Positions 58,222 to 63,790 of a stretch of 64,000 nt of DNA are shown here, in pieces; the first letter of the stretch is position 1, and every line of letters starts with the position of its first letter. The stretch is from Chloroflexota bacterium (GTDB lineage Bacteria; Chloroflexota; Anaerolineae; Anaerolineales; Villigracilaceae): NCBI GenBank assembly GCA_016234555.1, contig JACRBJ010000045.1:1-64000 (forward strand). Direction: 5' to 3'. Position numbers and translations under genes: made by a program. Under the pieces are notes generated by a model. It was given only the letters and a program-made list of their open reading frames with translations. It searched no databases and had not been told where the DNA came from.

Positions 58222-58270
58222 AAAACACGGTTCACCGACGAAAGATTAATTTCGGGGTGAACCGTGTTTT
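58222..58270. terminator. Bidirectional terminator
   Basis: AAAACACGGTTCACC (58222-58236) and GGTGAACCGTGTTTT (58256-58270) form a perfect 15-bp stem with A and T runs on both sides. It lies between convergent genes, and the CoA-transferase stop codon starts in its right arm. Confidence 0.8.
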
Positions 58271-59037
58271 TATGCCGCGCTTTTCAAGTAAATTCCAGTT
58301 GGATCGAGTTCCTCGCGCAAAATACGCAATTCGTTTTCGGTGACAGGTTCCGTCTCTTTCACCTGCGCCGCAGTCTTCAAATCCCAGCCGGTGTTGGCTT
58401 TGGCATCCTCCACTGTCTTGCCGGGATGCAGCGCCGTCAGGATCATTTCACCGTCCTCGTTTGGTTCGAGGATGCCGATGTCCGTCACCACCGCCAGCAT
58501 CCCGCCGCCGCGCAAGCCGGCAGACTCGCGATCACCCTTTCCGCCGATGAATCCGGCGGAGGTCATGAATTCGACTTTTTCGGGGAAGCGGCGTTTCTGA
58601 TGTGGAGTCATGATGTAGCAGCGGTTTGCCCACGCAGCGATTTCCTGCGACCCGCCCGAGCCTGGCAGTCGAACTTTGGGGTGGTCGTACCCGCCGATGA
58701 CGGTGGCATTGATGTTGCCGTGTTTATCGATTTGCGCGCCGCCCATGAATCCCACATCTACGTTGCCGCGCTGGAGATAGTTGGCGAAGATATCGTACAT
58801 GCTCACCACCGAGAGCGATCCGCTGACGAGGGTTGGGTCGCCAATGGACAGTGGAAGCCGCGCCGGTTCCGCGCCGATCACACCGGCTTCGTAGATCATC
58901 ACCAGGTTGGGAGCGTGCGTCCGCTTTGCAAGATTGCAGGCAAGGTTGGGCTGACCCACGCCCACGAAAACAACGTCGCCATCGCGCAACAAACGCGCGG
59001 CATTTATGATCATCAACTCGGCTGAAGAATAATTCAT
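58270..59037 (-). CDS. CoA-transferase subunit beta
   Basis: The 255-residue protein is of the family I CoA-transferase type. The active-site region VGVGQPNLACNLAKRTHAPN with the Glu in MIYEAGVIGAEP places it with glutaconate/3-oxoacid CoA-transferase beta subunits. It transfers CoA between carboxylic acids together with the alpha subunit at 61093-61995. The two genes lie 2 kb apart with two unrelated genes between, although they normally adjoin. GAGGAAAA precedes the ATG. Confidence 0.88.
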   Translation of the reverse strand: MNYSSAELMIINAARLLRDGDVVFVGVGQPNLACNLAKRTHAPNLVMIYEAGVIGAEPARLPLSIGDPTLVSGSLSVVSMYDIFANYLQRGNVDVGFMGGAQIDKHGNINATVIGGYDHPKVRLPGSGGSQEIAAWANRCYIMTPHQKRRFPEKVEFMTSAGFIGGKGDRESAGLRGGGMLAVVTDIGILEPNEDGEMILTALHPGKTVEDAKANTGWDLKTAAQVKETEPVTENELRILREELDPTGIYLKSAA

Positions 59038-61092: not shown

Positions 61093-61995
61093 TTAGTACT
61101 TCCCGTAGTTGATCTTCTCGCTGTACTTCGCCTTGACCTTCAATCGCTTGTGGACTTTCGCGCCGAGTTTTTGCCAATACTCCTCGCGGTCTTTGACGCC
61201 GAAGACCCACTCATCGAGATACGCCTGCACGCTTTCCTTCGACTCGCTGATCTTGTCCCACGCGAGATAGAACTCGTTGTCGCGGTCGTAATAGCCCTGC
61301 GAGTACGATGGGTGACTGGCGAACGGGACGTGACAGACTGCGTCCACGATGTTGGCGGAGATCATGGTGCGGTTCGGGTCGGAGCGGATGACGGATTCGT
61401 CCACGATTTCTTCGGCAGTGAGGATGACCTTCTTCGCGGCGAAGGCGGCTTCCTTTTGCTCGCCGATGATGCCCCACAAATGCGCATTGCCGTTTTCGTC
61501 CGCCCGCTGCACGTGGACAATTGCCACATCGGGATTCAGCGCGGGGACGACGATCACATCCTTGCCGCCGTACGGGTCGGGGATGCGCTTGATGAGCGGG
61601 TTGACTTGTTCGAGGCTGGTCGCGCCGGTCTGCTTCATCGGCAGGAAGGGCAGTCCCGATGCGCCCGCTTGCAGACGGGTGATCATGCCGAAGTGGGAAT
61701 ATTCTTCCCATTCCAGTTCGCCCTTTTCGATGGCGGCGCGGACAATTCTCAGCGAGCCGACGCCGGGATTTCCCATGTACGAGAAGATGACCTTCTTCGC
61801 GCAGCCCGCCGCTACCATCTGGTCATAGATCAGGTCGGGCGTGGCGCGGGCAAGGGTGAGGTTCTTCTTGCCCTGACGGATGATCTCATGCCCGGCGGCA
61901 AAGGGGATGAGGTGGGTGAACCCTGCGGCGTAGACCACATCGCCGTCGCTGACAAAATCTGCAATTGCCTGTTTGAGTGAAGTGAGTTTTGACAT
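61093..61995 (-). CDS. CoA-transferase subunit alpha
   Basis: The 300-residue protein is a family I CoA-transferase alpha subunit, with VSDGDVVYAAGFTHLIPFAA, VIFSYMGNPGVGSL and GKDVIVVPALNPDVAIVHVQ. It should form the enzyme with the beta subunit at 58270. The ATG at 61995 follows the stop of a small membrane-protein gene by one base, so translation is probably coupled. Longer in-frame versions run antisense through that gene and were rejected. Confidence 0.88.
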   Translation of the reverse strand: MSKLTSLKQAIADFVSDGDVVYAAGFTHLIPFAAGHEIIRQGKKNLTLARATPDLIYDQMVAAGCAKKVIFSYMGNPGVGSLRIVRAAIEKGELEWEEYSHFGMITRLQAGASGLPFLPMKQTGATSLEQVNPLIKRIPDPYGGKDVIVVPALNPDVAIVHVQRADENGNAHLWGIIGEQKEAAFAAKKVILTAEEIVDESVIRSDPNRTMISANIVDAVCHVPFASHPSYSQGYYDRDNEFYLAWDKISESKESVQAYLDEWVFGVKDREEYWQKLGAKVHKRLKVKAKYSEKINYGKY

Positions 61996-61996
61996 G

Positions 61997-62260
61997 TTAT
62001 TTTTTCTTTTCGTCCTTGCCTTTTTTATTCTTTCTCTCGTCGATTGTTTTCCTGAACCATGCGAAACGCCCGGCGGATGGAGGGGCTGGTCTGCCCCGAC
62101 GGAGAATCCCGCCGACAACAAACATCGCCAGCGCCGTGAAGAAGAAATCGTAATCCGGCTTCTTGGCAAAATCCGAGACGACGAACAGCACAAATGCCCC
62201 CCCGCCGATGACGTAAAAGAACAGTCCCACGCGGTAGATGAGAGGTTCGTCGTTTTCCAT
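61997..62260 (-). CDS. Small two-helix membrane protein
   Basis: The 87-residue protein has two hydrophobic helices (about residues 10-28 and 40-55) and a strongly basic C-terminus ending KKGKDEKKK. The ATG at 62260 is supported by GGAG nine bases upstream; the in-frame TTG five codons earlier overlaps this site. It adjoins the CoA-transferase alpha gene by one base. No family was recognised. Confidence 0.65.
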   Translation of the reverse strand: MENDEPLIYRVGLFFYVIGGGAFVLFVVSDFAKKPDYDFFFTALAMFVVGGILRRGRPAPPSAGRFAWFRKTIDERKNKKGKDEKKK

Positions 62261-63093: not shown

Positions 63094-63163
63094 AACGTCT
63101 AAATTTTGGACTACGCGTCGTCTATCAAAATACGAGACCAAATTATTTTAGAAGGAGATTTAG

Positions 63164-63724
63164 ATGAGATCCCGTTTTCTTTTTCTGACGATGGGACTGG
63201 TCGCCGCTCTGACGGTTGTATCCTGTTCCCCAACTGCCGCCCCGATAGCATCCCCTTCGGGGGCAGTTGATTCGGCTCCCCAAGCCTCTGCTCCCACCGC
63301 GGCTTTGGCGCCGCAACCCACAGCCCCAGCCGAGCCGACAGCTGCCGTCCCCACCCAAGCCGCTGAAGTTCAACCCGTCCCCGTCCCCACCTCGCGCGGG
63401 CCCAAGCTCGAAGCCACCGACCCCGCTACGGTGAGTCTGGCATCGGGTCAATTGCAACTTGTGGAATTTTTCCGCTTCACCTGAAGTACCTGCCGATCCA
63501 TGGCGCCCATGGTTCATGGGCTTGAAGCAGAGTATTCAGGCAAAATCAAATTCTCCTATCTTGATGCCGACGACCCCAACACCGATGAATTTCAGAGCGC
63601 GCTCGGCTTTCAGTATCAACCTGAGTTCTACCTGTTGGACGCCGACGGCAACGTAATTGGAAAGCTGATCGGGTTTGCCTCTGAAGACGAATTCAGAAAT
63701 TTGTTCAATCAGCAGTTGCAATAA
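63164..63724 (+). CDS. Thioredoxin-like lipoprotein, candidate selenoprotein (UxxC)
   Basis: A single 186-residue frame is interrupted by one TGA (63482-63484, residue 107). The N-terminus is a signal peptide with lipobox VVSC and a long Pro/Ala/Thr linker. The thioredoxin fold begins at about residue 97 (QLQLVEFFRFT) and continues after the TGA with STCRSMAPMVHGLEAEY, KFSYLDADDP, cis-Pro region FQYQPEFYLLDADGNV. The TGA occupies the first Cys of CxxC, giving U-S-T-C if read as selenocysteine. A hairpin with a GG-starting loop lies 26 bases downstream. AAGGAG precedes the ATG. A nonsense mutation or sequencing error (TGC to TGA) is the alternative. Confidence 0.8.
63505..63521 (+). promoter_or_regulatory. 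Candidate bacterial SECIS hairpin
   Basis: GCCCAT (63505-63510) pairs with ATGGGC (63516-63521) around the loop GGTTC. The loop begins with GG and starts 26 bases after the in-frame TGA, within the known 16-37 base window for bacterial SECIS elements. The stem is part of the coding sequence, as expected for bacteria. Confidence 0.6.
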
Positions 63725-63755: not shown

Positions 63756-63790
63756 CCGCTCCGTCGGAGGCTTGGTCCCCGACGGAGCGG
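63756..63790. repeat. Palindromic repeat after the thioredoxin-like gene
   Basis: CCGCTCCGTCGG (63756-63767) and CCGACGGAGCGG (63779-63790) form a perfect 12-bp stem around AGGCTTGGTCC, a variant of the GGGGGCTTAGCCCCC family. It probably ends the transcript 31 bases after the stop. Confidence 0.65.

Follow-up and report, generated by a model that had tools for sequence, protein, structure and literature searches.

The gene studied here lies at positions 63164-63724 of the 64,000-nt stretch of a Chloroflexota genome that we analyzed (hereafter the window). Its frame opens with an ATG at 63164 on the + strand, ends with a TAA at 63722-63724 and is interrupted by one in-frame TGA, at 63482-63484. 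An initial annotation had described the frame as open but for a single TGA at the first active-site Cys of a thioredoxin-like lipoprotein, and re-reading of 63164-63724 confirmed it. Around the TGA the read-through protein is ...LVEFFRFT-U-STCRSMAPMVHGLE..., with the active site FT-U-STCR and the TGA in its first position (UxxC). The features of the locus are as follows.

63164..63724, + strand: putative Sec thioredoxin-like lipoprotein gene, 186 residues with TGA as Sec, TAA stop (homologues)
63152..63157, + strand: Shine-Dalgarno-like AAGGAG, 6 nt 5' of the ATG (read by eye)
63164..63226, + strand: predicted signal peptide and lipobox VVS-C21, with the codon of the lipid-attachment Cys21 at 63224-63226
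63227..63388, + strand: Pro/Ala/Thr-rich linker (low confidence in the AlphaFold2 model)
63389..63721, + strand: thioredoxin domain, residues 76-186 (Pfam; AlphaFold2 model; Z about 16 to thioredoxins)
63482..63484, + strand: TGA as probable selenocysteine, residue 107 (TGA in 31/31 close genus homologues)
63491..63493, + strand: Cys110, putative resolving residue of UxxC (no variation in the 29 aligned rows)
63505..63521, + strand: predicted bSECIS hairpin, stem GCCCAU/AUGGGC, loop GGUUC (conservation and covariation across homologues)
63620..63622, + strand: Pro153, taken by analogy as the thioredoxin cis-Pro position (invariant in 29 aligned rows)
63756..63790, + strand: strong hairpin 3' of the gene, possible transcription end (fold prediction)

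The last hairpin has no T run after it and a terminator scan returned no hit, so its reading as a transcription end is weak. The lipobox pattern occurs in 38 of 41 homologue rows, for which start codons were picked with the lipobox in mind, and Cys21 is invariant in the 29 rows of alignment A1, drawn from those 41. By its lipobox and conserved Cys21, the product is predicted to be a bacterial lipoprotein. Elsewhere in the window, the ORFs at 58270-59037 (-) and 61093-62193 (-) resemble, by eye, two CoA-transferase subunits, with a lipoprotein-like and a hydrolase-like ORF between them (also by eye).

Translation table 11 divides the gene into two ORFs (63164-63484 and 63500-63724), which is what one would see if a nonsense mutation, an assembly error or pseudogene formation had made the TGA a real stop and left the remainder to decay. 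Yet the 79 codons 3' of the TGA are open and conserved as protein among homologues. Codon-position differences relative to five homologues are dominated by the third position (e.g., 13/8/28 for the first, second and third positions against L095). We searched the window genome and 60 relatives (61 genomes, 37 of them from the genus). Matches at 1e-5, part of them weak, were found in 52 of the 61; a close homologue (E at most 1.3e-55) is present in 31 of the 37 genus genomes and absent from 6. All of these 31, from separate assemblies of which two are single-contig, have exactly one internal stop, and it is a TGA. A gene broken by mutation or by assembly is hard to reconcile with this pattern, and we give that explanation a negligible probability, even counting the apparent active-site frameshift in one relative, G050.

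In the rest of the order, TGA homologues occur in nine genomes, eight from the search and G050, where the frameshift had hidden the gene, and a verified Cys homologue in two (G044 and G057). G050 was at one point taken for a Cys homologue; this was rejected, as the apparent frameshift puts its active-site region into a different frame, where it reads YYUGACRQ. The frameshift itself (L061, 801-1313, - strand) may be a sequencing error or decay. Among 400 genomes drawn from the phylum, 31 matched the profile at 1e-15, in part through ordinary Cys thioredoxins. When contigs of named genomes were scanned, 80 of 90 loci were retained, mostly from MAGs of Anaerolineales, Anaerolineae or Chloroflexi, with one locus each from Candidatus Villigracilaceae, Herpetosiphon sp., Brevefilum fermentans and Anaerolinea sp. 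Two loci with another residue at the site (L113 and L138) proved by eye to be unrelated frames. In the resulting alignment, which the initial annotation had proposed, the site is TGA or Cys, the only two states admitted by the final filter. The in-frame TGA is thus conserved across homologues at a redox-active Cys position.

For the hairpin and Sec/Cys counts given below (91 TGA and 15 Cys homologues), identical 150-nt contexts were counted once, and rows without the search motif or at contig ends were dropped. The loci dropped from the named-contig scan were L100 and L116, which occur in none of the remaining rows, as well as L108, L113, L115, L120 and L121, which lie on the same contigs as loci already counted. 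Those dropped from two other sets were L056, L061, L085, L087, L089 and the paralogues L063-L069, while L070 and L090-L094 were removed as ordinary thioredoxins.

Downstream of the TGA, the window stem GCCCAT/ATGGGC pairs 63505-63510 with 63516-63521 around the loop GGTTC (63511-63515), with 26 nt from TGA to loop; an alternative reading has 7 bp and the loop GUU. The energy of 63503-63523 is -11.3 kcal/mol. As given in a 2026 review (PMC13188914), the bSECIS model has a loop of 3-9 nt with a G in its first two bases, an upper stem of 4-16 bp, a distance of 16-37 nt from the UGA and an energy of -7.5 or lower. The 6-bp stem, GGTTC loop and 26-nt distance that the initial annotation had singled out as a bSECIS fall within these published constraints. 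In isolation, the window hairpin looks modest. The fold of a 59-nt segment has z = -1.69, and a fold at least as good arises in 12 of 200 shuffles; the lowest-energy fold of the segment competes with the SECIS stem, whose pairs have a probability near 0.24. When the window gene is considered by itself, all five core pairs arise in 5% of synonymous randomisations.

Across the family, all five core pairs (G-U allowed) are kept in 91 of 91 distinct TGA homologues versus 1 of 15 distinct Cys homologues (1/9 in an earlier Cys set), and when synonymous codons were randomised in 500 runs the five pairs occurred in a mean of 5.3 of the 91 rows and a maximum of 12. An alignment of 90 distinct rows shows pairing in 99.4% of cells, and in five of the six pairs both partners have changed: G-C replaces A-U in 21 rows, U-A replaces C-G in 10 rows at one pair and 6 at another, and two other pairs have fewer such rows. 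None of 500 shuffles reached the observed percentage paired, the doubly changed pairs or cells, or the covariation score; the number of further pair types was within the shuffle range (463/500 as high). Such column shuffles ignore relatedness, which alone can exceed them, but sliding the partners by 1-3 columns nonetheless left far fewer cells paired (at most 48%). Some stem changes also alter the protein, as in CCC..GGG to CCT..AGG, which swaps Gly for Arg, and protein constraint is no explanation for them. That the hairpin at 63505-63521 behaves as a bSECIS is thus a well-supported prediction.

The window genome (5.8 Mb, 101 contigs, 99.4% complete, 7.7% estimated contamination) was searched for selA, selB, selD and tRNA-Sec, as the initial annotation had suggested, and all are present above their cut-offs: SelA with 535.1 bits (cut-off 268), SelB with 347.8 (242), SelD with 353.2 (125) and tRNA-Sec with 67.1 (47), the latter being the only one of ten matches above the cut-off. 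ARAGORN also reports a SeC tRNA with anticodon tca. The selD gene (L018, G000:C8:26068-27000) has its own in-frame TGA at AGUASK, which we take as the SelD catalytic loop, followed by a hairpin with the loop GTC. The initial annotation had held absence of the machinery, or homologues lacking Cys at the site, to be fatal to its proposal; the machinery is encoded and the homologues carry Cys or TGA there.

The UGA could also be reassigned or suppressed as Cys or Trp, by an altered code or a tRNA with a UCA anticodon, and the occurrence of Cys homologues at the site would suit such a reading. However, the UCA tRNA matches tRNA-Sec above the cut-off, the genome encodes SelA, SelB and SelD, and the hairpin accompanies TGA throughout and Cys codons rarely. 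In addition, TGA serves as an ordinary stop elsewhere, as the initial annotation had stated: it ends one of the six neighbouring window ORFs looked at and is the stop of a second Sec gene of the same genome (L193). We regard reassignment as very improbable. The UGA at 63482 is best read as Sec because it is conserved in frame, is followed by a covarying SECIS-type hairpin, and lies in a genome encoding SelA, SelB, SelD and tRNA-Sec. The proposal of a candidate selenoprotein is thus upheld by the machinery, by the TGA in all 31 close genus homologues and by the hairpin counts (91/91 versus 1/15).

The second Sec gene (L193, G000:C64:72353-72748, - strand) encodes a thioredoxin-like protein with hydrophobic N-terminal segments and the motif ...FQSPY-U-ITC.... 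Its homologues, matched in 40 of the 61 genomes, include TGA and TGA-free forms. Between L193 and L185 the stem 3' of the TGA differs compensatorily, and L188 has a mismatch.

We then compared the presence of the TGA gene with that of the machinery. The 39 TGA genomes have tRNA-Sec in 33 cases, SelB in 35 and at least one of them in 37, versus 9, 14 and 14 of the other 22 genomes (Fisher p 0.003 for at least one, 37/39 vs 14/22, with genomes treated as unrelated). Moving G050, which has SelB and no tRNA-Sec match, to the TGA side by hand gives 33, 36 and 38 of 40. With stricter filters, a tRNA-Sec match is absent in 7 of the 40 TGA genomes (G013, G016, G030, G034, G035, G043 and G050). Five of these are assemblies of at least 210 contigs; G016 has 2 contigs and is 78% complete, and G050 has 30 contigs and is 95% complete. 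SelB is absent in four of the 40 (G003, G013, G016 and G054), such that G013 and G016, 71% and 78% complete, have neither. The two Cys genomes checked, G044 and G057, also have neither.

A quick tree of 106 domains, made without the U/C column, requires at least four Sec/Cys changes (shuffled mean 14.3), of which the starred branches force two; 46 of its 103 inner branches are left open and long branches join one another, and the tree does not show the direction of change. One Cys homologue, L161 (6367-6423), has an intact SECIS-like stem, and the full stem is absent from the other 14 of the 15 Cys members. This stem is likely a fossil of a Sec-to-Cys change, and its persistence beside Cys suggests at least one change in that direction. 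A family with Sec and Cys members, in which the stem is mostly absent beside Cys, offers a natural series for the study of Sec/Cys exchange.

The protein passes the gathering cut-off of the Pfam Thioredoxin family (PF00085; 37.6 vs 23.5 bits). Its AlphaFold2 model has a mean pLDDT of 82.2, with ten-residue means of at least 96 from residue 81 onward, and a structure search with the model returned solved thioredoxins (e.g., 7c3f_I, Z 16.1, rmsd 1.9, 103 residues aligned). Thioredoxins typically have WCGPC at the active site. More specific models fit poorly: the protein is well under the cut-off of the NCBIfam thioredoxin equivalog TIGR01068 (35.6 vs 96.8 bits), its scores with the TlpA and Redoxin models are far too low, and a scan of four family members found no NCBIfam model at or over its cut-off.

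The closest precedent by name is NF041057, the Rcas_1661 family of thioredoxin-like (seleno)lipoproteins able to carry Sec, whose tag stands for Roseiflexus castenholzii, another member of the Chloroflexota. By score the protein is separate from it (16.4 bits vs a cut-off of 190). The window genome has four matches to this model, and the best two (127.9 and 121.4 bits) are other genes, below the cut-off and without in-frame stops. The initial annotation had called a surface-exposed Sec thioredoxin-like lipoprotein unusual. That holds only in part, given the precedent in NF041057, and the surface exposure is a prediction from the lipobox. Membrane-anchored extracytoplasmic thioredoxin domains with a plausible CcdA partner, a likeness that we draw here, are also found among the TlpA/ResA/CcdA-linked thioredoxins and pneumococcal Etrx, the latter being extracytoplasmic thioredoxin lipoproteins; these use CxxC, and the TlpA and Redoxin scores set the present protein apart from them.

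Sec-containing thioredoxins with UxxC are themselves known, as an experimentally verified family (PF00085) in Table 1 of the 2026 review, which also enters the NF041057 accession as DsbG-like UxxC (PMC13188914). The present protein shares with that family the thioredoxin fold, Sec as first active-site residue and Cys three positions on. By domain alone, having passed the PF00085 cut-off, it would be included there, and the general thioredoxin entry of the catalogue, as far as its text is available, would include its domain. It differs in its lipobox, its long Pro/Ala/Thr linker and its active site FT-U-xTCR. The available part of the catalogue, which covers 119 prokaryotic selenoprotein families, names no thioredoxin lipoprotein of this clade (PMC13188914), and among the papers listed in our literature search none points to this protein by its title or the start of its abstract. 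We thus place its novelty at the level of a subfamily, since NF041057 is a precedent yet the score is 16.4 vs 190 bits and no NCBIfam cut-off is reached. That it represents a new subfamily is well supported by these comparisons.

What would the protein do? With the UGA at 63482 decoded as Sec, the product would be a lipoprotein precursor of 186 residues that contains a UxxC thioredoxin domain. This precursor would be exported and lipidated at Cys21, and the domain would be held outside the membrane, a position that the lipobox points to, on the flexible linker. Sec107 would attack and Cys110 resolve in thiol-disulfide exchange. Its most probable role is that of a lipid-anchored, extracytoplasmic thiol-disulfide oxidoreductase, with a predicted location and a putative partner and substrate. 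Five DsbD_TM (CcdA-type) matches over the cut-off in the window genome, one of them (L179) adjoining by eye a TlpA-like lipoprotein, mean that reducing power could cross the membrane, and the protein would most likely be a reductase fed by such transporters. The genome also has a VKOR match (88.5 bits), so an oxidising role is possible too: the selenoprotein would then be a PDI- or DsbA-like oxidant paired with VKOR and not fed by CcdA. Its presumed extracytoplasmic location and the protein disulfide isomerases among the sequence matches fit such a role. Still, thioredoxins make up most of the top matches by sequence and by fold, and a selenolate as the attacking group would favour reduction, such that we find an oxidant unlikely, if worth keeping in mind. 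Taken together, 63164-63724 is very probably a genuine selenoprotein gene of Anaerolineales (Chloroflexota), in which UGA would encode the Sec of an exported UxxC thioredoxin lipoprotein acting as a CcdA-fed reductase. Because standard annotation splits the gene at its active site, this conserved redox protein of the envelope has probably been missed or called broken in a clade of mostly uncultured Chloroflexota.

The gene neighbourhood was compared across homologues typed by active-site motif, the RFT-type being the clade of the window and the FW-type an outgroup. No conserved operon was found in the genus. The commonest cluster of upstream neighbours (43 ORFs among 106 rows) lies on the opposite strand; in L119, the single member tested, it encodes an aldehyde dehydrogenase, and a methyltransferase takes that place in the window. 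The gene downstream of the window gene has no Pfam match. CsoR or copper-ATPase/HMA genes on the same strand, starting within 1.6 kb downstream and labelled by motif, accompany 10 of 12 Cys rows and 5 of 25 Sec rows of the FW-type, and none of 55 RFT-type rows or 5 distant rows. A copper function for the window gene was rejected as unsupported in its clade, on that count of 0/55. By motif labels, 3 of 14 Cys rows and 8 of 24 Sec rows of the FW-type also have an upstream TlpA-like gene, and none of 48 RFT-type rows does.

The association of some outgroup relatives with TlpA-like, CsoR- and CopA-type genes raises the speculative and rather improbable scenario of an extracytoplasmic selenothioredoxin of copper-neighbourhood origin, the Sec form of which the window clade would have moved away to serve as a general envelope reductant. 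If this were true, the substrates of the family may be thiols of copper sites, or thiols damaged by copper, outside the membrane. L143 is the sole row in which Pfam bore out the motif labels, with CsoR-type, P-type ATPase, AhpC-TSA and LGT genes; there, a hairpin and a palindromic GC box, seen by eye between the lipoprotein gene and csoR, make a single operon doubtful even in this case. Finally, one relative carries two Sec thioredoxin lipoproteins in tandem (L052, G041:C719), with their TGA at 1698 and 2163.
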